Below are positions 1 to 60,540 of a DNA stretch of 64,000 nt, piece by piece (position 1 is the first letter of the stretch; every line of letters starts with the position of its first letter). The position numbers and the translations under genes were made by a program. This DNA is from Sipunculus nudus. Its lineage: Eukaryota > Annelida > Sipuncula > Golfingiida > Sipunculidae. Location: contig CM049317.1 in assembly GCA_026874595.1 (NCBI GenBank), forward strand, positions 42,122,401-42,186,400, in the 5' to 3' direction. A model generated the notes under the pieces. The model was not told the DNA's origin and ran no database searches. It was given only the letters and a program-made list of their open reading frames with translations.

Positions 1-267
1 CCTGTTAATGGACAGACTGCCCCGCCTGACAGCATAATGGCCGGACTGACAAACGATATTAATATTACATTACCACAACATAGCATTGTGGATTACTCCT
101 TGATTCAAAACAGTTTTGAACAATGGAGTTGAAACAGCTTCACAATTAAGGAAATAAATTTCAAACAATAACAATTTTTGCTTTACACTTTGGGGGGAGG
201 GGGAGGCTGATATGAAAATAACTGTAAACCTGTGACCCGTGCTCCCCAGTGACCCATTACAAATCTG
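1..267. other. Noncoding left flank, repeat-like
   Basis: No coding signal seen. Positions about 190-262 (a G-rich tract, then a gtgatatgaaaataactg-like stretch and a cagtgaccc/acaaatc motif) resemble 8633-8740, so this is probably dispersed repeat sequence. It abuts the 81-bp array directly. The normal downstream continuation of the RhoGAP exon is therefore not visible here. Confidence 0.5.
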
Positions 268-2302
268 GCCTGTTGAGGTGCGCCATCAGGTATTTGAGTG
301 TATTATAATGAGCTGTGAAGACATTATTTGCATATGTAGAGCTTTCTAACCTGTTGAGGTGAGCCATCAGGTATTTGAGTGTATGATAATGAGCTGTGAA
401 GAAATTATTTGCATATGTAGAGATTTCTGACCTGTTGAGGTGAGCCATCAGGTATTTGAGTGTATTATAATGAGCTGTGAAGACATTATTTGCATGTGTA
501 GAGAGCTTTCTGATCTGTTGAGGTGAGCCATCAGGTATTTGAGTGTATTATAATGAGCTGTGAAGACATTATTTGCATGTGTAGAGCTTTCTGACCTGTT
601 GAGGTGAGCCATCAGGTATTTGAGTGTATTATAATGAGCTGTGAAGACATTATTTGCATGTGTAGAGCTTTCTGACCTGTTGAGGTGAGCCATCAGGTAT
701 TTGAGTGTATAATAATGAGCTGTGAAGACATTATTTGCATATGTAGAGCTTTCTGACCTGTTGAGGTGAGCCATCAGGTATTTGAGTGTATTATAATGAG
801 CTGTGAAGACATTATTTGCATGTGTAGAGAGCTTTCTGACCTGTTGAGGTGAGCCATCAGGTATTTGAGTGTTTTATAATGAGCTGTGAAGACATTATTT
901 GCATGTGTAGAGCTTTCTGACCTGTTGAGGTGAGCCATCGGGTATTTGAGTGTATTATAATAAGCTGTGAAGACATTATTTGCATATGTAGAGCTTTCTG
1001 ACCTGTTGAGGTGAGCCATCGGGTATTTGAGTGTATTATAATGAGCTGTGAAGACATTATTTGCATATGTAGAGCTTTCTGACCTGTTGAGGTGAGCCAT
1101 CAGGTATTTGAGTGTATGATAATGAGCTGTGAAGACATTATTTGCATATGTAGAGCTTTCTGACCTGTTGAGGTGAGCCATCAGGTATTTGAGTGTATGA
1201 TAATGAGCTGTGAAGACATTATTTGCATATGTAGAGCTTTCTGACCTGTTGAGGTGAGCCATCAGGTATTTGAGTGTATGATAATGAGCTGTGAAGACAT
1301 TATTTGCATGTGTAGAGCTTTCTGACCTGTTGAGGTGAGCCATCAGGTATTTGAGTGTATTATAATGAGCTGTGAAGACATTATTTGCATGTGTAGAGCT
1401 TTCTGACCTGTTGAGGTGAGCCATCGGGTATTTGAGTTTATTATAATGAGCTGTGAAGACATTATTTGCATGTGTAGAGCTTTCTGACCTGTTGAGGTGA
1501 GCCATCAGGTATTTGAGTGTATTATAATGAGCTGTGAAGACATTATTTGCATATGTAGAGATTTCTGACCTGTTGAGGTGAGCCATCAGGTATTTGAGTG
1601 TATTATAATGAGCTGTGAAGACATTATTTGCATGTGTAGAGAGCTTTCTGACCTGTTGAGGTGAGCCATCAGGTATTTGAGTGTATTATAATGAGCTGTG
1701 AAGACATTATTTGCATGTGTAGAGCTTTCTGACCTGTTGAGGTGAGCCATCGGGTATTTGAGTGTATTATAATGAGCTGTGAAGACATTATTTGCATATG
1801 CAGAGCTTTCTGACCTGTTGAGGTGAGCCATCAGGTATTTGAGTGTATTATAATGAGCTGTGAAGACATTATTTGCATATGCAGAGCTTTCTGACCTGTT
1901 GAGGTGAGCCATCAGGTATTTGAGTGTATTATAATGAGCTGTGAAGACATTATTTGCATATGTAGAGCTTTCTGACCTGTTGAGGTGAGCCATCAGGTAT
2001 TTGAGTGTATTATAATGAGCTGTGAAGACATTATTTGCATATGTAGAGCTTTCTGACCTGTTGAGGTGAGCCATCAGGTATTTGAGTGTATTATAATGAG
2101 CTGTGAAGACATTATTTGCATGTGTAGAGAGCTTTCTGACCTGTTGAGGTGAGCCATCAGGTATTTGAGTGTATTATAATGAGCTGTGAAGACATTATTT
2201 GCATATGTAGAGCTTTCTGACCTGTTGAGGTGAGCCATCAGGTATTTGAGTGTATGATAATGAGCTGTGAAGACATTATTTGCATATGTAGAGCTTTCTG
2301 AC
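268..2302 (-). repeat. 81-bp minisatellite derived from a RhoGAP exon, about 26 copies
   Basis: Tandem array with an 81-bp period (27 codons). Read on the minus strand, each unit encodes TLKYLMAHLNR followed by SESSTYANNVFTAHY, and I count 26 copies of MAHLNR. The first half continues from the RhoGAP-like exon at 2303-2414. The second half may be former intron, because CAG/GTCAGA lies between them. Four units (near 497, 823, 1634 and 2124) carry two extra bases (gagagc for gagc) and shift the frame, splitting the array into five open blocks. Every unit contains ATTTGCAT. Units differ by only a few substitutions, so the amplification looks recent or homogenised. I do not claim that it is translated. 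Confidence 0.9.
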
Positions 2303-2414
2303 CTGTTGAGGTGAGCCATCAGGTATTTGAGTGTATGATAATGAGCTGGGGGAAGATGGACCATGGCTCTTCGCAGTTGATCAATCCTGTCCTCCTCACT
2401 TGCATATTCACTTT
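2303..2414 (-). CDS. Partial exon of a chimaerin-like RhoGAP domain
   Basis: The minus strand encodes EDRIDQLRRAMVHLPPAH followed by YHTLKYLMAHLNR. LPPAHxxTLxYLMAHLxR is the characteristic helix pair of RhoGAP domains and, from memory, fits chimaerins best; chimaerins are Rac-directed GTPase activators. A polypyrimidine tract ending in tatag precedes the exon at 2415-2426. The most natural 3' boundary is CAACAG/GTCAGA at 2303/2302. The residues FIES just upstream also match the family but would fall partly in the acceptor tract. The catalytic arginine lies in an earlier part of the domain and is not here, and no neighbouring RhoGAP exon was found in the window. This may be one exon of a live gene with large introns or a stranded fragment. 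Another RhoGAP subfamily is possible. Confidence 0.65.
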
Positions 2415-4532: not shown

Positions 4533-6232
4533 CTAGATATTTCTTGGCACCTCAGGTGCCAGAGTATCCCCAGACATAGTACAGACCCCCCCCCCCCCCC
4601 TTTAAGAATAGGCCCCCATTTTTAGCAGCATATACTGACCCTTGGCAAGCAATTATTGTTTCTTCCATCTATCAATCCACAATCTTTTTGAAGATGTTGG
4701 TCCTGTGACCTTGACCTTTGACCTCATGACCCAAAAATCAATTGGAGTCTTGCTTTTTCAATGGGACATATATAAGTCAAGTTTGAAATCTATACATCAA
4801 TAAAAGCAGGAATTATCATCCAGAAACTAATTTTTTGACAGATGGCTCCTGTGGCCTTGACCTTTGACCTTGTGACCCCAAAATTGATATTGATCATCCA
4901 CTTTTATATATAAATCAATAGAGGTCTAGATTTATTGATGGGCCATATATAAGTCAGGTTTGAAATCCATATATTAATCCAAGCTTGAATTATCATCTCA
5001 GGAACTAATTTTTGGACAGATGGCTCCTGTGACCTTCACCTTTGACCTTGTGACCTCACAATTGACAGGTGTCTTCCTCTATTGGCAGGGGAACTGTATG
5101 TGCAAGATGAAATGTCTGAGATGAAATGTTTGGCTGAATATGCATCCACAATCTTTTTAAAGATGTTTCCTGTGACCTTGACCTTTGACTTCATGACCCT
5201 AAAATCAATTCGGGTCTTGCTTTTCCAATGGGACATATACAAGTCAAGTTTGAAATCTATACATCCATAAAAGCAGGAATTATCATACAGAAACTAATTT
5301 TTGGACAGATGGCTCCTGTGACCTTCACCTTTGACCTTGTGACCTCAAAATTGATAGGGTTCTTCTTCTCTTGGCAGGTAAACTATATGTGCAAGATGAA
5401 AGATCTGAGATGAAATGTTTGGCTGAAAATGCATCCATATCTTTTTAAAGATGTGTCCTGTGACCTTGACCTTTGACCTCATTACCCAAAAATCAATTCG
5501 GGTCTTGCTTTTCCAATGGGTCATATACAAGTCAAGTTTGAAATCCATACATCAATAAAAGCAGGAATTATCATCCAGAAACTAATTTTTGGATAGATGG
5601 CTCCTGTGACCTTCACCTTTGACCTTGTGACCTCAAAATTGATAGGGGTCTTCCTCTATTGGCAGATGAACTATATGTGCTAGATGAAAGGTCTGACATG
5701 AAATGTTTGGCTGAAAATGCATCCACAATCTTTTTAAAGATGTGTCCTGTGACCTTGACCTTTGACCTCATGACCCCAAAATCAATTCGGGTCTTGCTTT
5801 TCCAATAGGACATATACAAGTCAAGTTTGAAATCAATACATCAATTAAAGCAGAAATTATCATCCAGAAACTAATTTTTGGACAGATAGCTCCTGTGGCC
5901 TTGACCTTTGACCTTGTGACCCCAAAATTGATATGGATCATCCACTATTGGCAAGTGAGCTATATATTCAAGATGGAAGACCTGGGATGAAAGTTTGGCT
6001 TAAAATGCATCCACAGTATCTTTTAAGATGCAAGTCCAGTGACCTTGACCTTTGACCTCATGATCCTAGAACCTATAGGGTTGTTATTTTAGTGGTGGGC
6101 CATACATAAGTCACGTTTAAAATCCATATGGCTATCAACACTGGAGATATCATAAGAGGTGTGTGATTTTCACCAAATATGGACACATTAAAGGTCAAGG
6201 CCACTCTCATGGTAAAGGTCATAATGTTTATT
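4533..6232 (-). mobile_element. Hel-C copy with tandem internal units, 5' end lost
   Basis: Starts at 4533 with the CTAG hairpin end (CTAGATATTTCTTGGCACC, then GGTGCC and GTATCCCCAGACA). The interior matches the complete copy at 57614-60540, including the stretch 'ggctatcaacactggagatatcataagaggtg'-like at about 6130-6160. The opposite hairpin (GTATCCCC/GGGGATAC) is not found. The copy runs into reverse-oriented Hel-D-like sequence near 6233. No protein is encoded. Confidence 0.7.
4680..6060. repeat. About 290-bp tandem units rich in nuclear-receptor half-sites
   Basis: Repeated blocks carry gtgaccttgacctttgacct, then gtcttgcttttccaatggg, a ggaattatcatccagaaac stretch, then gaccttcacctttgacctt. 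Successive equivalents lie near 5177, 5466 and 5756. The short open frames seen here on both strands are translations of the repeat, not genes. Confidence 0.75.
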
Positions 6233-21776: not shown

Positions 21777-22094
21777 TGTTAATGAACAAAAGATAAATCT
21801 GTTTTATCTTGTGAAAAGTACTTACTGCCAATCATTATGACAAGCATTACAGACCAACCGTTTTATCTTTGAAAATAAGTACTTACTGACAGTGACCATA
21901 ACCTCTGGATAAACATCAAAAGTGATGAGCGGGATGGGTAATGTCCTCAAGAAGAGCTTCAGGACACTGCTGATCGTATTGATGTCATCATATCGATTGG
22001 TTGAAATGTCTATTGTTTCAATATCTGCAATGATTAATAAATCATTTATAAATCATTTAATTATTTAATCACTGTGATCAGTATTGTAAAGGGC
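21777..22094. other. Noncoding, nothing recognised
   Basis: AT-rich sequence with no coding or repeat signature that I can name. Confidence 0.4.
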
Positions 22095-30082: not shown

Positions 30083-33000
30083 CAAGGCCTACAGGCCTAA
30101 TGCGAACCTGTGTACTGGGAAATACACCTGGTATAATGCTTCAATGCTGGACAAGTACTTTTCATGTATATGAACAATGCAAGTACTAAACATTTTGAAT
30201 AAGAAACAATTACATAAACATCACTGCTGAAATTCTGGCATGGGTGCACACAACACAAAAATGATTGTAGTTGACACCACCAGTCTTGTATACAACAAAG
30301 CTATCAGAGATATATAAATATGCCCAATTTCAGACTGATATATCAAACCCCTCCTGAAAATAAGCAGGGACACACACTGTGCAAAAATTATTGTAAGTGG
30401 CACCACCAGTCTTGCATACGACAAAGCTATTCGATATGTATATATATGCCCAATTTCAGGCTGATACATCACATTCCTCTGTAGAAATAAGCAGGCACAT
30501 ACACTGTGAAAAAGTCATTGTAGGTGGCAACACTTGTCTTGTGAACGAGAAAGCCATCAAAGACACATAGACAGGTCAAAATATCAGGCCAATACATCAA
30601 AATTACCTTGAGTCTGATGCATTGGGCTGACCAGGCTTAGGTGAGAAAGGCAGTTGCCCTGAGTGAACTGTGACAAATTTGCTCGCTTAGGCTACTGCAC
30701 TGAGTGAACTTATGACCTGCGCCTGGCTAGACTGAGTGAACTCTTGACCTGTTGCATAATCTGACACAGTTGGCAGTCTGCCAAAGCTATAAATTTGATC
30801 AAGGCTGAACGTTTGTGCCAAATCTGATGCAGTGGACAGTCTGCTAACACTATAAATAGAATGCAATTACTGCACTGAGTGAACTCCTGACCCATACCTG
30901 GCTGCACTGAGTGAACTCTTGACCTGTTGCCTAACCTGATACAGTTGGCAGTCTGCCAAAGCTATAAATAGATTGAGACTGACCTCTACCTGTTGCCAAG
31001 TCTGAAATAGTAGCCACACCATTGCATAAGCTCATGCAGGGGCCCTGCCCTGAGGGGCATGAGACCCATGAGGTGATCACATGGTGCCCAGGACGTGTTC
31101 ACATGTCGCCCATTAGGTGATCACATGTAACCCATGAGGTTATCACATGCCTTGTGCTTGGCTGCACTGATTGAACTCTTGACCTAAATCTGGCTGCACT
31201 GAATGAACTGTTGGTCTGTTGCTAAATCTGAAACAGTCTGTAGTTTCTCAACCTATTTAAAGAAACAGACATAATCTTGGAGTGTTGGTGAATCTGTTTA
31301 CACTTATTGAAAGACTTTGGCTAAAATGCTTTTTTTCAAGCTGACATATTCATAAACTTTTTATCGAAATATCTAGAATAATAAAAGATGCAGTTCTTTC
31401 ATTGTTAAAGGTCCAATAATTCTACCAAAAATCATTCAAGTAAACTTGAACAAAGGCCATCCAAGAATAATTTTTGTGCAATGTTACAGAAGTTATAATT
31501 GAAAGAATAATTTTGTAGAAGAACAGTTTTGCAGTCCTCAGTTTGAAATAGACATAATAATGGCCATAAGACTAACAAAAGCTTTTCTAATATGATTGAA
31601 AGAACCATGTCCTAGGATAATTCTTTTGAAAAATTGAACAATTCAACTTGACAGTTTCATCATAAACATTTTAAGCTGAAAGAGGCTAAAATTATGAGGT
31701 TTTTGCCCATAAAAACCGGTCAATGTAGGTGGCACCACAAAATCTGCAACTTCAAATATGAGTCAAGTGACCAACATTTGCACAATACTTGGTAATGCTA
31801 GCTTCTGTCATTTCTGAGATTACTATGTCTAAGCTTACTTGGCCAAATGACTGTTCAAATTCATGTAACTCCACTAAAATTCATCAAATCCAAACCATTT
31901 GAACAAACTTGAGAGGGCTAGCCTCTGGGATAATTTCTGCTAAATATTGAACAATTTGGCTGGACCGTTTACAAGAAGAAAACTTTTAAAGGTTTTTCAG
32001 CTTTTTCCCCATAAAATCTAAGTAAACATAGATAGCAAAAAAATAAGCTGAATCCCACAACATTTGATATGTGACAGATTATTTAAAAAAATCTGGGGAT
32101 GGTAGCTCCTGCCATTCCTGAGAAATTATGGGTTAATGTACAGATGACCAATGATCTCTGTACAAAAAAAGGTCAATGCAGGTGGGGCCACCAATACCTG
32201 AATTTCATATATGACTCATGTGACCAACACTGGCATGAAATTTGGTGATGATAGCTCCGGCCGTTTATGAGACTGTCATTTTAGTATGCTTTTTTTGCCA
32301 TATGACTTAGTTCAACTGGTAAAATGACTCAATTCAATCTTTATAATTCAGCCAAAATTCATTTTTTGGAACCATAAAAGACAATTATTATAAGAATTAT
32401 TCAGGGGATTATTCTTGTAAAATATTAAACAAATATGCCTAAGTGGCCTCAGTCAAAAAACGTTTTACAGGTTTATAACTCATATGGGAATATACAGCAA
32501 AATGGCTAAGATAAGCTTCTCATAACTCAGCCAAAAATCACTGAACCAAAACCATTTGAACAAACTTGAATTATCAACATCTAAGGATAATTAAAGAGTG
32601 AGATTTAAGAATTTGGCCATGTGGTTTTTGATCTTTGAGAAAGAAGATCTTTGTAGCCACTTAGCTAAAATGGGATGTTATGGCATATGACTAAATTCAG
32701 CTTTCCATAACTCAGCCAAAAGTCACTGAACTGAGACCATTTGAACAAACTTCAGAAAGCAATACCCTAGGATATCATTTCTGTGCGATATTAAACAATT
32801 TGGTCATATGATTTCAGAGAAGAAGTTTTTTGTAGCTGTCAGTATGATATAGGCACTGATGACCCCCGTACAAAAAAGGCCGATGCAGGTGGCGCCACAA
32901 ATACCTCAATTTCAGATATGACTCATGTGACCAACATTGGCAAAAATTTGGTGATGATAGCTCCAGCCGTTTCTGAGATTGTAATTTTACTATGCTTTAT

Positions 33001-33391: not shown

Positions 33392-34228
33392 AACAAGTTA
33401 TCATCCTGGGTACACAGATCAGACAGAGAAAAGTTATCATCCTGAGTAAACAGATCAAACAGAGACAAGTTATCATCCTGGCTAAACAGATCAGACAGAG
33501 ACAAGTTATCATCATGGATAAACAGATCAGACAAAAAAGTTATCATCCTGGCTAAACAGATCAGACAGAGACAATTTATCATCCTGGCTCAACAGATCAG
33601 ATAGAAACAAGTTATCATTCTTGCCAAACAGATCAGACAGAGACAAGCTATCAACCTGAGTAAACAAATCAGACAGAGACAAGTTACCATCCTGGATAAA
33701 CAGATCAGACAGAGACAAGTTGTCATCCTGGCTAAACAGATCAGACAGAGACAAGTTATCATCATGGCTTAACAGATCAGACAAAGACAAGTTATCATCC
33801 TGGCTTAACAGATCAGACAGACACAAGTTATTATACTGCATAAACAGATAAGATAGAGACATGTTATTATCATGGCTAAACAGATCAGAGAGAGACACGT
33901 TATCATTCTGGTTAAACAGATCAGACAGAGACATATTATCATCCTGGCTAAACAGATCAGACAGAGACATGTTATAATCCTGGCTAAACGTATCAGACAG
34001 AGACAAGTTATCATCCTGTGTAAACAGACCAGACAGAAAAGTTATAGTCCTGGCTAAATAGATCAGACAGAGACAAGTTATCATCATGGCTAAACAGATC
34101 AGATGGAGACATGTTATCATCCTGGCTAAAGAGATCAGACAGAGAAAAGTTATCATCCTGCTTTAACAGATCAGACAGAGACAAGTTATCATCATGGCTA
34201 AACAGATCAGACAGAGACAAGTTATCAT
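33392..34228. repeat. 36-bp minisatellite, left part (about 23 units)
   Basis: Unit: aagttatcatcctggctaaa then cagatcagacagagac. Minus-strand translation gives repeats of SLSDLFSQDDNL; the plus strand is also often open because 36 is a multiple of three. It stops exactly at gttatcat (34221-34228), where the hAT-like element begins, and resumes in phase at 44672. I treat the open frames as by-products of the unit length. Confidence 0.9.
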
Positions 34229-37197: not shown

Positions 37198-37717
37198 AAA
37201 CAAGGCCTAAAGGCCTAATGCGAACCTGTGCATTGGGAAATACATTAGGTATAATGCTTCAATACTGGCTCATTACTTTTCATGTGTATGAACAAATTGC
37301 AAGTACTAAACATTTTGAATAAGAAACAATTACACAAACATCACTGCTGAAATTCTGGCACGGGTGCACACAACACAAAAACAAGGGACCCATGGGTCAC
37401 AGTGCTCAGCTGATCGTGATTGGACTATAAATGTTTCTCCACTGTAATACTATATCGAGTTGATAAAGCTTATGAATATCATGGACATGTTGGGCTATTA
37501 AAAAGGAATGTAATGTAATATGTGAGTAAATGATAAATGAAATTACCTGACTGATGGATTAATAGAGTCAAATATAGTGGTTTATTTTTTATTTATTTAG
37601 GAGGGGTTGAAAATTGTGATATATTTGAGCAAATATGAATGCAATGACAGCAGTAATAAGCAGTAGTAGAATGATGATAAGGCTATTTGTTGAAGGATCT
37701 AAAGTGTATGGTAGTCT

Positions 37718-38173
37718 GCAAGCTTTCAATTTGACAGATATAATGTTATGATTAACTATGCTGATGAAGTGATTTATGACTTTGTGACTGTGTGACACAA
37801 TATCTCTTTAGTCTTGACAAGGTACATTATTGTGATGCCCACTATGTCTACATATTACACAATATTGACATAATTTCTGGCATGTACATAGGTACCTATG
37901 GACGAATAGTTATACAAAATATTAAAGTATGAATATATCTGATTCATCTTGTTCTTGCTTACTGAGGCTGACTTTGGAATGGGGTTCGGAGAAGGGAAAA
38001 GTGAGGGCAGCACGAAGGTGGATGTAGAAATATTCTATTGTAATGTTTTTTATTTATATAAGAATATGAAAAGCTAAGAGGAAAGAGGCCCTCCAACTTG
38101 GTTATAGTAAAGTTCTAAATATATGATTGCAAACTAATACTCTGACAAGACTGTCATGAAGAAAAACAGTAAA
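37718..38173. repeat. Single copy of the 459-bp monomer
   Basis: From gcaagctttcaatttgacag to the gtcatgaagaaaaacagtaa motif. The same sequence is present six times in tandem at 46997-49745, in the same position of a sibling element. Confidence 0.85.
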
Positions 38174-39037
38174 ATTTTGAGATACTGTGATGCATATGAA
38201 AATTTACAGATGGACAGGCAAGTGGACAGAATGGACTAATACCTTTATTTCACTTTCAAGGGAATAATGCATTCAAGTTTATATATAATCCTATTTTTTT
38301 TAAGCATATCCACTTTTTCCATTAAGAAGTTTTTATCTGAATCATTTTTTTATTTACAGGTTTTATAAATTTTTAATAAAAAAAACCTGAAAATATAAGT
38401 TAAAATATTAGAATTGTTGCAAAAGTTGCAATCATTATATATACAGAGTAAAAAACTGAAACTATAAGTTAAAATATTAGAATTGCTGCAAAAGTTGCAA
38501 TCATCATATATCCAGAGTGAAGCTCATATTGGGTCATATTATGCATACACATATATTTTGTTATTTTTAAATCATAAATGTTTAAACTGAATTTTAAAGA
38601 TAATAATGCCACAACATGGCATCTACAAGAATATTCCTTGAATCACTATTAAAAAGTTTTGCACATTGGAGTTTTCAGTGCATGCTTAATTTTATTCACC
38701 AAAATAAAATAAAAGTAAATTTGATAAAATAAAACATCTTTTCAAATAAAGTATACACACTGTTGGTTGAATGAGGGACAAACAATATCATTGTGCTAAT
38801 TACTATCCCAGTTTTAATTTATTACTGGAATTAATAGTCAATTTCACACCTGGTGAAGTTTTTACTCTTCTGAAGTAAGGAATTACTTATCTGATGAACA
38901 TCCACACTTTCATAGCAATACACCACTTTGTGGACACAATTAAATGTACACTTTAATCATTGTAACCCTGGTGGTACAATACAAAATCTAAAATGTAGCA
39001 TAGCCTGGAATAAGAATGAATCAAATACAGAAAATAA

Positions 39038-40219: not shown

Positions 40220-41774
40220 TAATGCCAACAGCCTGGGGAGCATAGACATGTGCACTGAATGACCTACAGTCATCAAAGTGGACTGCTTGACAATGTAAGG
40301 GAATACAACAAGAGCCTCCAAAAAAGTTCAATAACTAGCCTAATTTTGCAGCTTTTATTTTCAAATTTCAGATTTTAACAGATTAAATCCTTATGTATAC
40401 ATGCTGTGAAAATTAAATCCACAGTGCTTACAGGAAAAAAAACGTGCTGGGCCAAAGTTGGGCAAAATTTAAGGTACAAATTTTATATTTTTGCTAATAT
40501 TTAAAAAAATTTAACAGATTTTGATCTAATTTTTGGTATACAATTAAATTTTGATTAATAAAAGTTGTATTCCTGGAAAAAAAAGTCCTTTAACACTTTT
40601 GGTCTTAAGTGACCAAATATCTTCCTGATTTTTTTACAAAGTCCATTATGTTTGGGCCCATAACTTTTTTAAATTATATAATACTGACTTAATATCTGGC
40701 ATGTACATAGGAACTATACAGAAGAATATTTATAGTAAATATGAAGAAAACCTGATGAGTGGTTTTGATATTAGGCAGTCCTGAAGTGTGAAAATAGATT
40801 TCTAATAAAAAATTGAGGTTTTTCCTTAATATCTCGAAGGAACTAAGACCTATTGACCCAATTTTCAGCATGGTAGGAGATTTTGGGGACATCTAACTGT
40901 ATGCTGAATTTCAGATTCGTAGGTTGCCAGTCTGACGGACGGACATCCGGACAGACGGATGGATGGACGACGGACAATGGACCACGACTATAGCTCAGAT
41001 GACTTATAGTCAGCTGAGCTAATGATTGTAGTTGGCACCACCAGTCTTGTATACAACAAAGCTATCAAAGATATATAAATATGCCCAATTTCAGAATGAT
41101 ATATCAAACCCCTCCTGAGAAATAAGCAGGGACACACATTGTGCAAAAATTATTGTTGGTGGCACCACCAGTCTTGTATATGACAAAGCTATTCGATATG
41201 TATAACTTGCCCAATTTCAGGCTGATTATATCAAATTCCTCTGTAGAAATAAGGAGGCACATAGATTGTGCAAAAGTCATTGTAGGTGGCGACACCTGTC
41301 TTGTGAACGAGAAAGCCATCAATGACACATAGACAGGCCAAAATATCAGGCCACTACATCAAACTTACCTTGAGTCTGATGCATGGGGCTGACTAGGCTT
41401 AGGTGAGAAAGGCAGTTGCCCCAAGTGAACTGTGACAAATTGCTAGCTCAGGCTACTGCACTGAGTGAACTCATAACCTGCACCTGGCTAGACTGAGTGA
41501 ACTTTTGACCTGTACCTGGCTGCACTGAGTGAACTCTTGACCTATTGCATAATCTGACACAGTGGGCAGTCTGCCAATGCTATAAATAGAATGCAGCTAC
41601 TGCACTGAGTGAACTCCTGACCTATACCTGCCTGTTCTGAGTGACCGGTTACCGAATCTGATACAGTTGGCAGTCTGCCAAAGCTATAAATAGATCCAGA
41701 CTTACCTTTGGCCTGTAGCCAAATCTGAAATAGTAGCCACATCATTGCATTAGCTCACAGATTGGCTCCACATG

Positions 41775-41880
41775 CAGCCCTGAGGGGCATGACACCCATG
41801 AGGTGATCACATGATACTCATGAGATGATCACATGCTACCCATGAGGTGATCACATGCTGCCCATGAGGTGTTTACATGC
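41775..41880. repeat. TGATCACATG subrepeats in Hel-B
   Basis: Four imperfect units of about 24 bp, each containing the palindrome TGATCA within atgaggtgatcacatg. Confidence 0.7.
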
Positions 41881-44671
41881 CTTGTGCTTGGCTGCACTGA
41901 TTGAACTCTTGACCTATATCTGGCTGCACTGAATGAACTCTTGATCTGTTGCAAAATCTGAAACAGTCTGCAGTTTTTCAACCTATTTAATGATACAGAC
42001 ACAATCTTTGCCTGTTGGTAAATCTGTTTACACAAACTGAAAGACTTTGGCTAAAATGCTTTTTTTTCAAGCTGACATATTCATAAACTTTTTACCAAAA
42101 ATATCTATAATAATAAAAGATGCAGTCCTTTGGCTGTTTAAGGTCCAATAATTCTGCCAAAAATCATTCAAGTAAACTTGAACAAAGGCCACCTAAACAA
42201 TTTTGTAGAAGAACACTATTGCAGTGCTCAGTTTGAAATAAACATAATAATGGCCATAAGACCAACTTAAGCTTTTCACGACTCAACAAAAAATCAACAA
42301 ACTCAATCTATTCTTATATGATTGAAAGAACCATGTCCTAGAAAAATTCTTTTGAAAAATTGAATGATTCAACTTGACAGTTTCATCATAAACATTATAA
42401 GCTGAAAGAGGCTAAAGTTATGACGTTTTTGCCAATAAAAACAGGTCAATGTAGGTGGCACCACAAAATCTGCAACTTCAAATATAAGTCATGTGACCAA
42501 CATTTGCACAATTCTTGGTAATGCTAGGTTCTGTCATTTCTGAGATTACTATGTCAGTATGCCTACTTGGCAAAATGACTAAGTTCAAATTTGTGTAACT
42601 CCGCTAATATTCATCAAATGCAAACCATTTGAACAAACTTGGGAAAGCTTGCCTCTGGGATCATTTCTGTAAAATATTGAACAATTTGGCTGGACTGTTT
42701 TCAAGAAGAAGACTTTTAGAGGTTTTTCAGCCTTTTCACTATAAAATTTAAGTTAATGCAGATAACAAAAAAATAAGCTGAATCCCACAACATATAATAT
42801 GTGACAGATTATTGCATAAAATCTGGGGATGGTAGTTCCTGCTATTCCTGAGAAATTATGGGTTGATATACAGATGACCAATGACCCCAGTACAAAAAAG
42901 GTCAATGCAAGTGGCGCCACCAATACCTGAATTTCATATATGACTCATGTGACCAACACTGGCATAAAATTTGGTGATGATAGCTCAGGCTGTTTCTGAG
43001 ATTGTCATTTTAGTATGCCTTTTTGGACAGATGACTTAGTTCAACTTCCTGTAACTCGGCCAAATTCACCCAAATTTAACCATTTGAATAAATTTGTGAG
43101 AGATGGTATAAGAGATTATTTCTGTGAAATATTGAACAATTTGCCTTGACCATTTCGGAGAAGAAGATTTCAAACAGTTTTTTAGCTTTTTTATAAAATC
43201 TAAGAAAATGCAGAGTTTCTCAGACGGCTAATTTTTTGCATTTAATTTAATGATGCTAGCTCCAGTCGTTGTAAAATATTAAACAAATTAGCCTCAGTTG
43301 TGTCAGTCAAAAATGTTTTGCAGGTTTATAACTCATATAGGAAAATATAGAAAAATTGCTAAGTTAAGCTTCCCATAACTCGGCGAAAAAACACTGAACC
43401 AAAACCATTTGAACAAACTTGAATTATCAACATCTAAGGATAATTAATGTGTGAGATTTATGAATTCTGCCTGGTGGTTTTTGAGAAGAAGATCTTTGTA
43501 GCCACTGAGCTAAACTGGGCTGTCATGGCATATGACTAAATTCAGCATCCCATAACTTAGCCAAAAGTCCCTGAACTGAGATCATTTGAACAAAATTCAG
43601 AAAGCAGTACCCTAAGATCATTTCTTTGCGATATTAAACAATTTGGCCATATGGTTTCAGAGAAGAAGTTTTTTGTAGCCCTCAGTTTGACACGGGCACT
43701 GATGACCCCCATACAAAAAGGCTGATGCAGGTGGCACTACCAATACCTCAATTTCAGATATGACTCATGTGACAAACATTCACATATAATTTGGTGATGA
43801 TAGCTCCAGCCGTTTCTGAGATTGTAATTTAAGTATGCTTTTTTGGACAGATGACTAAGTTTAACTTTTTGTAACTCGGCCAAAAATTACCGAACTTAAA
43901 CCATTCGAACAAACTTGAGAGAGATTGTTCCAGAGTTCATTTCTGTAAAATATTGGACAATTTGGCTGAACAGTTTCAGAAAAGTAGATTTTTAAAGGTT
44001 TTTAAGCCTTTTCCCTATAAACTCTAAGAAAATGCAGTTGGCCAAAAAATAAGCAAAATCCAATAGAGTTTTTTAGATGACTAATTTTTTGCATAAAATT
44101 TTGTAATGCTAACTCATGCCGTTTTCAAGACAGTATGGGTTAATGTACAGACGACGGCTGACGGCCGACGGACGCCACACCATCGCATAAGCTCACAGGT
44201 TCGCTAAAAAGCACTTGAAAGCTAAAAATATAATTACTATTGTAACTAATGCAGCAGTGGCACCTGCCATCAGTTGAGCAGATTATTTCTAATAGAATCT
44301 CCCAAAATTTGCATATAGACCTGGAAAATGATGGAGCATTTTAAAGCCATACCGCCCATATTTTGGAAAGAAACTCTGCACTAATTCTGCAGCTGCCTGC
44401 CAGTTCACAGAAGTTTAATAAGTCCTCCGTTCTCTTATCTACGGTATCATACTCAGTTATATATGAAGGCTATTTGGGAACACAGACTCATTATACAAAG
44501 CGCAGAATGTTGTAAGAAATGGAAGAATAATTTTTGCCTTTAACATAAAGACATTCTGGTAAAACAATCAGGAGTATGATGTAATCGATAGTTGCCTTTG
44601 GTAAGCAAGCGCTTGAAAGTCGCAGCAAACCGACTGACTTTCGAAAAAACTCGATGATCGGCCCACCACTA

Positions 44672-45790
44672 GTTATCATCCTGGCTAAACAGATCAGACA
44701 GGGACAAGTTATCATCATGGCTAAACAGATCAGACAGAGGCATGTTTTCATCCTGGCTGAACAGATCAGACAGAGACAAGTTATCATCCTGGCTTAACAG
44801 ATCAGAGAGAGACAAGTTATCATCCTGGCTTAACAGATCAGACAGGGAAAGTTATCATCCGGGCTTAACAGATCAGACAAAGACAAGTTATCATACTGCA
44901 CAAACAGATAAGACAGAGATATATTATCAACCATTGCTAAAGAGATCAGACAGAGACATGTTATAATCCTGGTTAAACGTATCAGACAGAGACAAGATAT
45001 CATCCTAGCTTAACAGATTAGACAGAGACAAGTTATCATCCTAGTTAAACAAATCAGACAGAGACAAATTATCATCATGGCTAAACAGATCAGACAGAGA
45101 CAAGTAATCATCCTGGCTGAACAGATCAGACAGAGACAAGTTTCATCCTGGCTCAACAGATCAGACAGAGACAAGTTATCATATTGCATAAACAGATTAG
45201 AAAGAGACAATTTATCATCCTGGATTAACAGATCAAACATAGACAAGTTATCATACTGCATAAACAGATCAGACAGAGAAATGTTATCATAATGGCTAAA
45301 CAGATCAGTGAGAGACACGTTATCATTCTGGCTAAACAGATCAGACAGAGACATGTTATCTCCTGGCTAAACAGATCAGACAGAGACAAGTTACCATCCT
45401 GGCTAAACAGATCAGGCAGACACATGTTATCATCCTGGCTTAACAGATCAGACAGAGACAAGTTATCATCCTGGCTTAACAGATTATACAGAGACAAGTT
45501 ATCATACTGCATAAACAGATAAGACAGGGACATGTTATCATCATGGCTAAACAGATCCGACAGAGACAAGTTATCATCCTGGCTTAACAGATCAGACAGA
45601 TACATGTTATCATCCTGGCTTAACAGATCAGACAGAGACAAGTTATCATCCTTGCTCAACAGATCAGACAGAGACAAGTTATCATATTGGCTCAACAGAT
45701 CAGACAGAAGCAATTTATCATTTTTGCCAAACAGATCAGACTGAGACAAGTTATTGTCCTGTGTTTACAGATCAGACAGAGACAGGTTGG
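44672..45790. repeat. 36-bp minisatellite, right part (about 31 units)
   Basis: Continuation of the array at 33392-34228 after the hAT-like insertion, beginning with the duplicated gttatcat. It ends near 45790 (cagagacaggttggcatc). Units vary by substitutions and occasional 1-bp deletions that shift frame. Confidence 0.9.
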
Positions 45791-46660: not shown

Positions 46661-49600
46661 CAAGGGACCCATGGGTCACGGCGCTCAGCTGATTGTGATT
46701 GGACTATAAATGGTTCTCCACTGTGATACTATATTGAGTCGATAAAGCTTATGAATATCATGGACATGTTGGGCTATTATAAAGGAATGTAATGTAATAT
46801 GTGAGTAAATGATAAATGAAATAACCTGACTGATGGATTAATAGAGTCAAATATAGTGGTTTATTTTTTATTTATTTAGGAGGGGTTGAAAATTGTGATA
46901 TATTTGAGCAAATATGAATGCAATGACAGCAGTAATATGCAGTAGTAGAATGATTTTAAGGCTATTTGTTGAAGGATCTAAAGTGTATAGTAGTCTGCAA
47001 GCTTTCAATTTGACAGGTATGATGTTATGATTAACTATGCTGATGAAGTGATTTATGAATTTGTGACTGTATGACACAATATCTCTTTAGTCTTGACAGA
47101 GTACATTATTGTGATGCCCACAATGTCTACATATTACACAATACTGACATAATTTCTGGCAAGTACATAGGTACCTATGGACGAATAGTTATACAAAATA
47201 TTAAAGTATGAATATATCTGATTCATCTTGTTCTTGCTTACTGAGGCTGACTTTGGGATGGGGTTCCGAGAAGGGAAAAGTGAGGGCAGCACAAAGGTGG
47301 ATGTAGAAATATTCTATTGTAATGTTTTTCATTTATATAAGAATATGAAAAGCTAAGAGGAAAGGGGCCCTCCTACTTGGTTATAGTAAAGTTCTAAATA
47401 TATGATTGCAAACTAATACTCTGACAAGACTGTCATGAAGTAAAAAACAGTAAATGCAAGCTTTCAATTTGACAGATATGATGTTATGATTAACTATGCT
47501 GATGAAGTGATTTATGAATCTGTGACTGTATGACACAATATCTCTTTAGTCTTGACAAGGTACATTATTGTGATGCCCACTATGTCTACATATTACACAA
47601 TATTGACATAATTTCTGGCATGTACATAGGTACCTATGGACGAATAGTTTTACAAAATATTAAAGTATGAATATATCTGATTCATCTTGTTCTTGCTTAC
47701 TGAGGCTGACTTTGGGATGGGGTTTGGAGAAGGGAAAAGTGAGGGCAGCACGAAGGTGGATGTAGAAATATTATATTGTAATGTTTTTCATTTATATAAG
47801 AATATGAAAAGCTAAGAGGAAAGGGGCCCTCCTACTTGGTTATAGTAAAGTTCTAAATATATGATTGCAAACAAATACTCTGACAAGACTGTCATGAAGT
47901 AAAAAACAGTAAAATGCAAGCTTTCAATTTGACAGATATGATGTTATGATTAACTATGCTGATGAAGTGATTTATGAATTTGTGACTGTATGACACAATA
48001 TCTCTTTAGTCTTGACAAGGTACATTATTGTGATGCCCACTATGTCTACATATTACACAATATTGACATAATTTCTGGCATGTACATAGGTACCTATGGA
48101 TGAATAGTTTTACAAAATATTAAAGTATGAATATATCTGATTCATCTTGTTCTTGCTTACTGAGGCTGACTTTGGGATGGGGCTTGGAGAAGGGAAAAGT
48201 GAGGGCAGCACGAAGGTGGATGTAGAAATATTCTATTGTAATGTTTTCATTTATATAAGAATATGAAAAGCTAAGAGGAAAGGGGCCCTCCTACTTGGTT
48301 ATAGTAAAGTTCTAAATATATGATTGCAAACTAATACTCTGACAAGACTGTCATGAAGAAAAACAGTAAATGCAAGCTTTCAATTTGACAGATATGATGT
48401 TATGATTAACTATGCTGATGAAGTGATTTATGAATCTGTGACTGTATGACACAATATCTCTTTAGTCTTGACAAGGTAAATTATTGTGATGCCCACTATG
48501 TCTTCATATTACACAATATTGACATTATTTCTGGCATGTACATAGGTACCTTTGGACGAATATTTATACAAAATATTAAAGTATGAATATATCTGTTTCA
48601 TCTTGTTCTTGCTTACTGAGGCTGACTTTGAGATGGGGTTCAGAGAAGGGAAAAGTGAGGGCAGCATGAAGGTGGATGTAGAAATATTCTATTGTAATGT
48701 TTTTCATTTATATATGAATATGAAAAGCTAAGAGGAAAGGGGCCCTCCTACTTGGTTATAGTAAAGTTCTAAATATATGATTGCAAACTAATACTCTGAC
48801 AAGACTGTCATGAAGTAAAAAACAGTAAATGCAAGCTTTCAATTTGACAGATATGATGTTATGATTAACTATGCTGATGAAGTGATTTATGAATCTGTGA
48901 CTGTATGACACAATATCTCTTTAGTCTTGACAAGGTAAATTATTGTGATGCCCACTATGTCTACATATTACACAATATTGACATAATTTCTGGCATGTAC
49001 ATAGGTACCTATGGACGAATAGTTATACAAAATATTAAAGTATGAATATATCTGTTTCATCTTGTTCTTGCTTACTGAGGCTGACTTTGAGATGGGGTTC
49101 AGAGAAGGGAAAAGTGAGGGCAGCACGAAGGTGGATGTAGAAATATTCTATTGTAATGTTTTTCATTTATATAAGAATATTAAAAGCTAAGAGGAAAGGG
49201 GCCCTCCTACTTGGTTATAGTAAAGTTCTAAATATATGATTGCAAACTAATACTCTGACAAGACTGTCATGAAGTAAAAAACAGTAAATGCAAGCTTTCA
49301 ATTTGACAGATATGATGTTATGATTAACTATGCTGATGAAGTGATTTATGAATTTGTGACTGTATTACACAATATCTCTTTAGTCTTGACAAGGTACATT
49401 ATTATGATGCCCACTATGTCTACATATTACACAATATTGACATAATTTCTGGCATGTACATAGGTACCTATGGACGAATAGTTATACAAAATATTAAAGT
49501 ATGAATATATCTGATTCATCTTGTTCTTGCTTACTGAGGCTGACTTTGGGATGGGGTTCGGAGAAGGGAAAAGTGAGGGCAGCACAAAGGTGGATGTAGA

Positions 49601-51811
49601 AATATTCTATTGTAATGTTTTTCATTTATATAAGAATATGAAAAGCTAAGAGGAAAGGGACCCTCCTACTTGGTTATAGTAAAGTTCTAAATATATGATT
49701 GCAAACTAATACTCTGACAAGACTGTCATGAAGAAAAACAGTAAAAGTTTTGAGATACTGTAATGCATATGAAAATTTACAGATGGACAGGCAAGTGGAC
49801 AGAATGGACTAATACCTTTATTTCACTTTCAAGGGAATAATGCATTTAAGTTTATATATAAGCCTATCTTTTTAAAGCATATCCACTTTTTCCATTAAGA
49901 AGTTTTTATCTGAATCATTTTTTTTATTTACAGGTTTTATAAATTTTTAATAAAAAAACCTGAAAATATAAGTTAAAATATTAGAATTGTTGCAAAAGCT
50001 GCAATCATTATATATACAGAGTAAAAAACTGAAAGTATAAGTAAAAATATTAGATTTGTTGCAAAAGTTGCAATCATCATATATCCAGAGTGTAGCTCAT
50101 ATTGGGTCATATTATGCATACACATATATTTTATTATTTTAAATCATAAATGTTTAAACTGAATTTAAAGGAAAATAATGCCACAACATGGCATCTACAA
50201 GAATATTCCTTGAATCACTATTAAAAAGTTTTGCACATTGGAGTTTTCAGTACATGCTTAATTTTATTCACCAAAATAAAATAAATGATTCAGTAAATTT
50301 GATAAAATAAAACATCTTTTCAAATAAAGTGCATAATAAAGGAAATAATATGCACCATCTGGGGGGGGGGAGTGCAGGGCAGAGGGGAAGCCTGCTGGTA
50401 GTGGCCAAGCTGACCCAAGGCAAGCTGCCTGGGATGGGTTACATAATGCAAGTGAAGGCTGTACTACTAGGTGGGCTAGATGTAAACAACACTTGACATG
50501 GTGTATGAAAACATGAATAAAAGCTATTCTTTCCAATCAATATCTTTGAAATTTCAGATTTTAAAAGATTAAATTCTTATGTATATATGCTGTGAAAATT
50601 AAATCAACAGTGCCAAAGTTGGACAAAATTTAAGGTATTGATTTTTTATTTATGCTAATAACTTGAAAAATTTGCAAAATTCAGATCTAATTTTGGGTAA
50701 ACAATTGAATCTTGATTAAATAAAGTTATATTCCTGAAAAAAAGTCTCTAGGTTCAGCAATTCTCATGTTAGGTGAGTAAATATATTTCCTGATTTTTTA
50801 AAAAATTGCATTATGTTTTGGCCCATAACTTCAAAATAATACCCAATATTGACCTAATTTTTGGTATGTTCATGGAAAATGTATGAAAGAATGTGAATAC
50901 TATATACGATCAAAAACAGATCAGTGGTTTTGATATTAGGCAGCCCTGAAGTGTAACAATGGCTTTTTTTATGGAAAATGGAGTTTTTTCCTTAATATCT
51001 CGAAGGAACGAAGTCCTAATGACCCAATTTTCGGTATGGTAGGAGATTTTGGGGACATCTAAAATTATGCCAACAGCCTGGGGAGCATAGAGATGTGCAC
51101 TGAATGACCTACAGTCATCGAAGTGGACTGCTTGACAATGTAAGGGAATACTACAAGAGCCTCCAAAAAAATTCAATAACAAGCCTAATTTTGCAGCTTT
51201 TATTTTCAAATTTCAGATTTGAACAGATTAAATCCTTATATATACATGCTGTGAAAATTAAATCCACAGTACTTACAGGAAAAAAATGTGCCGCGGCCAA
51301 AGTTGGGCAAAATTCAAGGTACCAATTTTATATTTTTGTCAATATTTAAAAAATTTAACAGATTTCGATCTAATTTTTGGTATACAATTAAATTTTGATT
51401 AATTAAAGTTGTATTACTGGAAAAAAGTCCCTACCTTTAACACTTTTGGTCTTAAGTGACCAAATATCTTCCTGAATTTTTTACAAAGTCCATTATGTTT
51501 GGGCCCATAACTTTTTTAAATTATATAATACTGACTTAATATCTGGCATGTACATAGGAACTATATAGAGGAACATTTATGGTAAATATGAAGAAAACCA
51601 GATGAGTGGTTTTGATATTAGGCAGTCCTGAAGTGTGAAAATAGATTTCTAATAAAAAATTGAAGTTTTTCTTTAATATCTTGAAGAAACGAAGTCCTAT
51701 TGACCCAATTTTCGGCATGGTAGGAGATTTTGGGGACATCTAACTGTATGCCCAATTTCAGATTCGTAGGTCCAACGGTGTCAAAACGTACCAGTCTGAC
51801 GGGCGGACATC

Positions 51812-51988: not shown

Positions 51989-53425
51989 CTAGACATTTCT
52001 TGGCACCGTTGGTGCCAGAGTATCCCGAGACATAGTAGGCCCCCCCTTTATGAATAGACCCTCATTTTTAGCAGCATATACTGACACTTGGCATATTTAT
52101 TGCTTCTTCCATCTAACAATCCACAATCTTGTTGAAGATGTTGGTCCTGTGACCTTGATCTTTTTAAAGATGTGTCCTGTGACCTTTCCCTTTGACCTCA
52201 TGACCCCAAAATCAATTTGGGTCTTACTTTTCCAATGGGACAAATACAAGTCAAGTTTGAAATCCATACATAAATAAAAGCAGGAATTATCATCCAGAAA
52301 CTATTTTTTGGACAGATGGCTTGTGTGACCTTCACCTTTGACCTTGTGACCTCAAAATTGATAGGGGTCTTCCACTCTTGGCAGGTGAACTATATGTGCA
52401 AGATGAAAGATCTGAGAAGAATTGTTTGGCTGAAAATGCATCCACAATCTTTTTAAAGATGTGTCCTGTGACCTTGACCTTTGACCTCATGACCCCAAAA
52501 TCAATTTGGTCTTGCTTTTCCAATGGGACATATACAAGTCAAGTTTGAAATCAATACATCAATAAAAGAAGGAATTATCATCTAGAAACTAATTTTTGGA
52601 CAGATAGCTCCTGTGGCCTTGACCTTGTGACCCCAAAATTTATATGGATCATCCACTATTGGCAAGTGAGCTATATATTCAAGATGGAAGACCTGGGATG
52701 AAAGTTTGGCTTAAAATGCATCCACAGTATCTTTTAAAATGCCAGTCCAGTGACCTTGACCTTTGACCTCATTACTCTAGAACCTATAGGGTTCTTACTT
52801 TAGTGGTGGGCCATACATAAGTCATGTTTGAAATCCATATGGCTATCAACACTGGAGATATCATAAGAGGTGTGTGATTTTCACCATATATGGCAATATT
52901 CAATGTCAAGGCCACTATCATAGTGACCACAATTTAAATAAACATCATCCCATAACCCATACCTATGTATATGCATAATATAAAAGAAATCTGTCCATTA
53001 GTTTTTGACTTATAATGCTCACAGTACTGTAAGGTGGCAATTTTGAGGGTGTTTAACGGCACGAAAACAAGTAAAGAATAATAGGTGGCGCCACCAGTTT
53101 CTGGAACATGACAACCCTATCAATGATCTTCCATCAGCTTGATTTTGGGATAAATCCATGCAAGATTTCTTGAGATATTAAAGAATTTGTGTGATTTTCC
53201 CCAAAATTGGACCTATTCAAGGTCAAGGACACTCTCCTAGTAAAGGTCATGACCTAATTTTAAATAGGCTTCGTCCTCTTACCCATATCTATACATATAC
53301 CAAGTTTGGTAAAGTTCCGTGAAATATTTTTTGGGTTATCGCGCCAACAAGATTTATATGCGGCGGCGGTGGCGGGGGGATCGGTATGAAAACATAGTAT
53401 CCCCCGACTTTGTCTGGGGATACAA
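51989..53425 (-). mobile_element. Complete Hel-C copy, 1.44 kb
   Basis: CTAGACATTTCTTGGCACC on the left; hairpin GTATCCCC/GGGGATAC then AA on the right. The host reads actgaaa/tgatt, intact at about 26038-26048 (actgaaatgatt), so insertion was between A and T without duplication. It carries about four DR1-type sites, fewer than the copy at 57614. Confidence 0.85.
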
Positions 53426-57613: not shown

Positions 57614-60540
57614 CTAGACATTTCTTGGCACCGCAGGTGCCAGAGTATCCCCAGACATAGTACTGCCCCTCTTTAAGAATAGGCCCCCATTTTAAGCTCC
57701 TGTGACCTTCACCTTTGACCTTGTGACCTCAAAATTGATAGGGGTCTTACTCTCTTGGCAGGTGAACTATATGTGCAAGATGAAAGGTCTGAGGTGAAAT
57801 GTTTGGCTGAAATTGCATCCACAACCTTTTTTAAAGAGGTTTCCTGTGACCTTGACCTTTGACCTCATGACCCCAAAATCAATTCGGGTCTTGCTTTTTC
57901 AAATGGGTCAAATACAAGTCAAGTTTGAAATCCATACATCAATAAAAGAAGGAATTATCATCCAGAAACTAATTTTTGGACAGATGGCTCCTGTGACCTT
58001 CACCTTTGACCTTGTGACCTCAAAATTGATAGGGTTCTTCCTCTCTTGGCAGGTGAACTATATGTGCAAGATGAAAGATCTGAGATGAAATGTTTGGCTG
58101 AAAATGCATCCACATCTTTTTAAAGAAGTGTCCTGTGACCTTTACCTTTGACCTCATGACCCCAAAATCAATTCAGGTCTTGCTTTTCCAATGGGACATA
58201 TACAAGTCAAGTTTGAAATCCATACATCAATAAAAGCAGGAATTATCATCCAGAAACTAATTTTTGGACAGATGGCTCCTGTGACCTTCACCTTTGACCT
58301 TGTGACCTCAAAATTGATAGGGGTCTTCCACTCTTGGCAGGTGAACTATATGTGCAAGATAAAAGATCTGAGATGAATTGTTTGGCTGAAATTGCATCCA
58401 CAACCTTTTTAAAGAGGTTTCCTGTGACCTTGACCTTTGACCTCATGACCCCAAAATCAATTTGGGTCTTGCTTTTCAAATGGGTCAAATACAAGTCAAG
58501 TTTGAAATTCATACATCAATAAAAGAAGGAATTATCATCCAGAAACTAATTTTTGGACAGATAGCTCCTGTGGCCTTGACCTTTGACCTTGTGACCCCAA
58601 AATTTATATGGATTATCCACTATTGGCAAGTGAGCTATATGTGCAAGATGAAAGATCTGAGATGAAATGTTTGGCTGAAAATGCATCCACATCTTTTTAA
58701 AGATGTGTCCTGTGACCTTGAACTTTGACCTCATGACCCCAAAATCAATTCAGGTCTTGCTTTTCCAATGGGACATATACAAGTCAAGTTTGAAATCCAT
58801 ACATCAATAAAAGCAGGAATTATCATCCAGAAACTAATTTTATGACAGATGGCTCCTGTGACCTTCACCTTTGACCTAGTGACCTCAAAATTGATAGGGG
58901 TCTTCCACTCTTGGCAGGTGAACTATATGTGCAAGATGAAAGATCTGAGATGAATTGTTTGGCTGAAATTGCATCCACAACCTTTTTAAAGAGGTTTCCT
59001 GTGACCTTGACCTTTGACCTCATGACCCCAAAATCAATTCGGGTCTTGCTTTTCCAATGGGTCAAATACAAGTCAAGTTTGAAATCCATACATCAATAAA
59101 AGAAGGAATTATCATCCAGAAACTAATTTTTGGACAGATAGCTTCTGTGGCCTTGACCTTTGACCCAAAAATTTATATGGATTATCCACTATTGGCAAGT
59201 GAGCTATATATTCAAGATGGAAGACCTGGGATGAAAGTTTGGCTTAAAATGCATCCACATTTTTTTAAAGATGTGTCCTGTGACCTTGACCTTTGACCTC
59301 ATGACCTCAAAATCAATTTGGGTCTTGCTTTTCCAATGGGACATATACAAGTCAAGTTTGAAATCCATACATCAATAAAAGGAGGAATTATCATCCAGGA
59401 ACTAATTTTTGGACAGATGGCTCCTGTGACCTTCACCTTTGACCTTGTGACCTCAAAACTGATAGGGGTCTTCTGCCATTGGCAGATGACTTATATGTGC
59501 AAGATGAAAGGTCTGAGATGAAATGTTTGGCTGAAAATGCATCCACAATCTTTTTAAAGATGTGTCCTGTGACCTTGACCTTTGACCGCATGACCCCAAA
59601 ATCAATTGGAGTTTTGCTTTTTCAATGGGACATATATAAGTCAAATTTGAAATCAATACATCAATAAAAGCAGGAATTATCATCCAAAAACTAATTTTTG
59701 GACAGATAGCACCTGTGGCCTTGACCTTTGACCTTGTGACCCCAAAATTTATATGGATCATCCACTATTGGCAAGTGAGCTATATATTCAAGATGGAAGA
59801 CCTGGAATGAAAGTTTGGCTTAAAATGCATCCACAGTATCTTTTAAAATGCCAGTCCAGTGACCTTGACCTTTGACCTCATGACCCTAGAACCTATAGGG
59901 TTCTTACTTTAGTGGTGGGCCATACATAAGTCATGTTTGAAATCCATATGGCTATCAACACTGGAGATATCATAAGAGGTGTGTGATTTTCACCATATAT
60001 GGCAATATTCAAGGTCAAGGCCACTATCTTAGGAAAGGTCATGACCCCAATTTAAATAAACATCATCCCATAGCCCATACCTATGTATATGCATAATATA
60101 AAAGAAATCTGTCCATCAGTTTTTGACTTATAATGCTCACAGTACTGTAAGGTGGCAATTTTGGGGATATTAAACGGCATGAAAACAAGTAAAGAATAAT
60201 AGGTGGCGCCACCAGTTTCAGGAACATGACAACCCTATCCATGATCTTCCATCAACTTGATTTTGGGATAAATCCATGCAAGATTTCTTGAGATATTAAA
60301 GAATTTGTGTGATTTTCCCCAAAATTGGACCTATTCAAGGTCAAGGACACTCTCCTAGTAAAGGTCATGACCTAATTTTAAATAGGCTTCGTCCTCTTAC
60401 CCATATCTATACATATACCAAGTTTGGTAAAGTTCCGTGAAATATTTTTTGGGTTATTGCGCCAACAAGATTTATATGCGGGGGCGGCGGCGGGACCGGT
60501 ATGAAAACATAGTATCCCCCGACTTTGTCTGGGGATACAA
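57614..60540 (-). mobile_element. Complete Hel-C copy, 2.93 kb
   Basis: CTAGACATTTCTTGGCACC, GGTGCC and GTATCCCCAGACA at the left; GTATCCCC, loop, GGGGATAC, AA at the right. The host reads gacataa/taatggcc, intact at about 31550-31563. Twice the length of the copy at 51989, owing to additional 290-bp internal units. Non-coding. Confidence 0.87.
57700..59890. repeat. About 290-bp Hel-C units, roughly seven, with DR1-type sites
   Basis: Sixteen close variants of acctttgacc, alternating between gtgaccttgacctttgacct and gaccttcacctttgacctt contexts about 145 bp apart. The reverse complement of the first contains AGGTCAAAGGTCAAGGTCA. Short open frames on both strands are repeat translations. Confidence 0.85.

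Follow-up and report, generated by a model that had tools for sequence, protein, structure and literature searches.

At a RhoGAP exon of Sipunculus nudus, the coding sequence runs directly into a tandem array of 81-bp units, each of which repeats the end of the exon. This raises the question of how the array arose and what it does to the gene that carries it. Exon and array lie at the beginning of the window, the stretch of 64,000 nucleotides that was analysed (GCA_026874595.1, contig CM049317.1, positions 42,122,401 to 42,186,400). In an initial annotation, made from the letters of the DNA, the exon was compared to chimaerin, and the array was described as an unusual tandem expansion of a RhoGAP domain exon. 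The array is here very probably an intronic minisatellite, which arose from a chimaerin exon end and is spliced out via the first donor.

The parent exon of 112 nt (window 2303..2414, minus strand) was delimited by its splice signals and reading frame, and was identified by Pfam and PDB matches. It is bordered by the acceptor TTTTTTTATAG|AAAGTG and the donor CAACAG|GTCAGA, is entered in phase 1 and left in phase 2, and encodes the peptide KSEYASEEDRIDQLRRAMVHLPPAHYHTLKYLMAHLNR. By itself, the exon matches the Pfam RhoGAP family PF00620 with an E value of 1.6e-7, and its best PDB matches, the nearest solved relatives, are chimaerins. The exons of the gene were placed with a chimaerin sequence, which served as query only. 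Their order on the minus strand is C1, C1 and RhoGAP exons, and after splicing they give the C1 domain followed by a RhoGAP domain by which chimaerins are recognised. The spliced reading scored 58.6 bits for C1 (E 5.6e-16) and 160.8 bits for RhoGAP (E 2.6e-47, positions 1-147 of 148), and it matched N-chimaerin with an E value of 2e-99, the next family following at 2e-31. Both the RhoGAP identity of the exon and its kinship to chimaerin, as proposed initially, were thereby confirmed. No match to an N-terminal SH2 domain, which is present only in long chimaerin isoforms, was found in the stretch read, up to C12:42266400.

The RhoGAP exon that precedes the 112-nt exon in the gene is located at window 21887..22024 on the minus strand, with ends taken from the splice signals. 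The last exon, followed by the stop, was identified about 28 kb beyond the array at C12:42094360-42094175 on the minus strand, and continues the 112-nt exon in frame (LNR|VTKHK). With exon and donor intact and the next exon in frame, the array forms the start of the last intron, which has a length of about 30 kb; the array accounts for 2 kb of this and the sequence behind it for 28 kb. By its sequence, the chimaerin gene looks intact. The proposed tandem expansion of the domain exon was not found: the array is intronic, the exon is not enlarged, and the last exon continues the domain without the array. From the sequence, a coding expansion was also rejected on the ground that read-through into the array stops in unit 3.

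The array itself (window 270..2302, minus strand) was defined by TRF, unit parsing and genome search. It consists of 25 complete units, 21 of 81 bp and four of 83 bp, arranged head-to-tail between the donors at 2302 and 269; TRF called window 264-2348 with a period of 81, 25.6 copies and 97% matches. Together with the native exon end, this gives the 26 copies, continuous with the exon end, that had been reported initially. In a donor-to-donor alignment, each unit is composed of 38-40 bp from the intron start, followed by 43 bp from the exon end. The unit therefore spans the exon-intron junction, and what has been multiplied is a 5' splice site. The exon end recurring in each unit (2303..2345, minus strand, from the unit alignment) is CTCATTATCATACACTCAAATACCTGATGGCTCACCTCAACAG. 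Over these 43 nt, the units show 0-3 differences to the exon, with units 1, 13, 14, 15 and 24 being identical to it. The mean unit-to-unit divergence is 2.6 of 81 bases, and the variation falls on 14 alignment columns, comprises substitutions and length, and follows a non-repeating order. A higher-order structure with a period of 488 bp, indicated by TRF, was rejected, because it is unsupported by the unit distances; here, the best lag was 10 units, but it was weak (P 0.05 over all lags).

When one unit was used as query for the complete 1.43-Gb genome, 26 matches were obtained, all at the chimaerin locus, the 26th being the exon itself. The array is thus specific to this locus, and a chance resemblance is excluded. 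Conservation of the exon as far as human chimaerin identifies it as the source from which the array was copied. The initial proposal of a satellite born from coding sequence is in agreement with this search and with the identity over 43 nt, both of which point to the chimaerin exon.

The array probably started with a single tandem duplication across the exon-intron junction, about 81 bp long, to which the exon contributed 43 bp and the intron 38 bp. Such a duplication would have been tolerated, since it would leave the original exon and donor whole upstream of the new copy. By slippage or unequal exchange, the array would then have expanded within the last intron until it comprised 25 units. 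During RNA processing, the first donor and the exon's own acceptor would most likely define the exon, and the array would be removed as intron. Exon definition and the precedents with undisturbed splicing in amphioxus suggest that the first donor is most likely the one used. The array is most likely near-neutral.

At the exon-side breakpoint, only CAG is held in common (CCCCCAG / TTCACAG). The distal end of the array is truncated by a dispersed repeat (window 61..268), for which many copies with 81-90% identity exist genome-wide. The junction is located at about 264-268, within a few bases of the last exon-end copy, and other copies of this repeat run past the junction point without an array. 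Since the original flanking intron was lost at this junction, the first duplication and the distal breakpoint are beyond reconstruction. A paralogous chimaerin without the array, representing the ancestral intron, was not found, the next RhoGAP matches being 26-51% identical.

Further repeats are present in the window. Two long arrays with a common 36-bp unit lie 11 kb apart at 33393-34228 and 44671-45788, and their surroundings are partly duplicated (30260-32317 and 41021-43046 at 84%, 37717-38752 and 49289-50330 at 96%). Six units of 459 bp, 97% alike, adjoin the second of these arrays at 46996-49745. Arrays with units of 288-289 bp, which are rich in TGACCTTGACCTTTGACC, were identified at 4938-6063, 52158-52772 and 57696-59948.

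The comparison was extended to 30 other RhoGAP-exon loci, which were obtained by a family search and carry nine arrays. The same anatomy, with an array over the 5' splice site, was identified at two of the 30 loci, L040 and L035. In L040, an exon at C17:8984652, with a resemblance to RICS-type RhoGAP judged by eye only, is followed by about 99 units of 55 bp (C17:8984761-8990192, L040 1610-3150) that contain the exon end and the donor A|GTGAGT. This unit was found nowhere else in the genome except for a fragment 1.5 kb further on. In L035, about 30 units of 56 bp span the 5' splice site (C4:93041403-93043118, L035 1616-3147) of an exon at C4:93041288. Here, the copied donors are weakened from GTTTGT to GTTTAT by a change of the fifth base from G to A. 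The L035 copies also show a CTTACAG acceptor-like motif, which has arisen just before the donor. At a further locus, L046 (C5, near 58460886), six copies of the 24-bp unit TGTCAGCAGTTTGTCTTACCTTAG, at 1358-1509 in gene orientation, abut the 3' splice site of the RhoGAP exon and multiply the intron end. The presence of locus-specific 5'-splice-site arrays in two more RhoGAP genes implies that the process recurs in this genome, and the shared anatomy counts in favour of an intronic minisatellite at the chimaerin locus. Boundary-spanning repeats look common in the Sipunculus nudus genome.

Arrays of this kind have been described in amphioxus as 'mirages', in which exon-intron boundaries of Adh3, the globins BflGb6 and BflGb9, troponin C and PGBD5 are tandemly duplicated; splicing was tested there by RT-PCR and is reported to be undisturbed (PMC3087553, PMC3902484). 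Mirages are recognised by boundary-spanning units, copied splice signals, undisturbed splicing, and a length that is unstable between haplotypes or somatic cells. As in mirages, which carry copied AG/GT signals in many of their boundary-spanning tandem units (PMC3087553, PMC3902484), the units of the chimaerin array combine 43 nt of exon with 38-40 nt of intron, and 22 of the 25 later donors match the native donor exactly. Mirages also vary in length, the units in BflGb6 are 81-100% identical, and in BflGb9, as in the chimaerin array, it is the 3' end of an exon that is duplicated (PMC3087553, PMC3902484). Mirages, however, are reported from cephalochordates and number 3-6 units in BflGb6, whereas the three RhoGAP genes described here from genomic sequence carry arrays with between 25 and about 99 units. 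The genome is probably not that of a cephalochordate, as one of its genes (C9:1755849-1760425) agrees over the full length with the scallop half of a joint scallop/human query for the myosin essential light chain, at 55-58%.

A similar likeness exists to human segmentally duplicated genes, in which minisatellite units at exon-intron boundaries can alter splicing (PMC2812944). The human repeats have units of 30 bp on average in 4 copies and occur in recent paralogues (PMC2812944), whereas no close paralogue of the chimaerin gene was found. In the Rogers model of intron gain, the tandem duplication of an AGGT-containing segment, exemplified by potato RdRp and ATP2A1, provides duplicated AG|GT motifs as possible new splice sites, as is also the case here (PMC4974935). 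In contrast to this model, an existing intron has been enlarged, and a new intron was not seen. The array was called unusual in the initial annotation; its kind had already been described with the amphioxus mirages, and two further RhoGAP genes in the same genome are alike. What appears to be new from the sequence comparison are the two additional RhoGAP genes with 5'-splice-site arrays and thus a recurrence beyond amphioxus. A molluscan case of such arrays was not found reported in the open literature, which is itself only a part of the literature.

The positions of these arrays might suggest that duplications are seeded in a targeted manner, with the tandem duplications being made by a process that is linked to transcription or to 5' splice sites, so that arrays accumulate at exon ends throughout the genome. 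This concerns the reason why the array arose and is compatible with an intronic minisatellite that is spliced out. When the nine arrays were placed at random, 0.15 were expected over the 5' splice site and the probability of finding two or more was 0.009, a value which comes from a small sample of one domain family and a test made after seeing the data. The array of L046, which reaches a 3' splice site, is also in line with targeted seeding. Minisatellites are, however, abundant in the genome generally, and selection would remove duplications within exons. Since the first copy stays whole when a duplication spans the splice site, survival alone can make arrays appear to sit at splice sites. 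Targeted seeding is therefore regarded as unlikely.

For the intronic minisatellite, the native 5' splice site CAG|GTCAGA (window 2297..2305, minus strand) was compared to the donors of the array. The three later donors that differ from it are ATCAGA, GTTAGA and GCCAGA. With an approximate weight matrix, the array donors reach the score of the native donor, 7.9 bits. GT sites of the same or a higher score occur 0.46 times per kb in the remaining intron but about 12 times per kb in the array, a density about 25 times higher. With later donors equal to the native one in score and so much denser, mis-splicing is possible. The reading frame of the exon is open for two units only, until a 2-bp insertion brings the first in-frame stop in unit 3 (window 2074..2076, minus strand, starting at 2076). 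Use of the donor one or two units in is predicted to add 27 or 54 residues in frame, the residues of the first unit being SESSTYANNVFTAHYHTLKYLMAHLNR and those of the second the same with one change. For any donor from the third unit on, a premature stop is predicted 113 residues from the start of the 112-nt exon. The later donors would thus act as decoys, and an occasional use of the next two would place the 27 or 54 extra residues inside the RhoGAP domain. The exon phases and the open frame are compatible with regular splicing.

These donors could also be taken for a functional device of alternative splicing. Tissue-specific use of the donors one or two units in would then yield RhoGAP isoforms with 27 or 54 additional residues, or later donors would yield unproductive transcripts that tune the protein amount. 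A unit of 27 codons that is open in the exon frame, the predicted complete proteins from the first two of these donors, the stop after 113 residues for all others, and the conservation of 22 of 25 donors are consistent with this. The insertion would, however, follow and duplicate the TLKYLMAHLNR helix. Minority letters occur at 0.013 per site in the copied exon part and at 0.019 in the intron part, which is about alike, and amino-acid changes are present in the copies (H to N in 19 of 25, L to P in 4). Since the variation in the exon part is not clearly lower and the 83-bp units break the frame in addition, the copies look unselected as coding sequence. Moreover, the units of the two sister arrays, with 55 and 56 bp, are not multiples of three, and the donors of one of these arrays have decayed. 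A role as splicing device is therefore judged improbable.

The use of a single assembly might raise the suspicion of an assembly artefact, which is very improbable in view of the variation at 14 columns in non-repeating order and of independent arrays of the same kind at two other loci. An unrelated satellite or transposon-borne repeat that landed against the exon, in favour of which the dispersed repeat bordering the distal end could be cited, was ruled out by the genome-wide unit search and the unit alignment, since the unit holds 43 nt identical to the exon end and coding for a conserved chimaerin peptide, the array is unique to the locus, and the dispersed repeat occurs elsewhere without it.

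The chimaerin array is thus best described as an intronic minisatellite of exonic origin. Tentatively, exon-intron junctions, chiefly 5' splice sites, may serve as recurrent seeds of minisatellites genome-wide and outside the cephalochordates, so that many genes might carry tens of decoy donors at the mouth of an intron. How the spliceosome chooses one donor among 26 to 100 near-identical tandem ones is a testable question. Such arrays represent natural experiments on exon definition and on the idea that new introns or exons are formed by the tandem duplication of splice signals. If the pattern is genome-wide, a phenomenon described mainly from amphioxus would be broader, and genomes of this type would call for care with gene models and with exon-based repeat masks.
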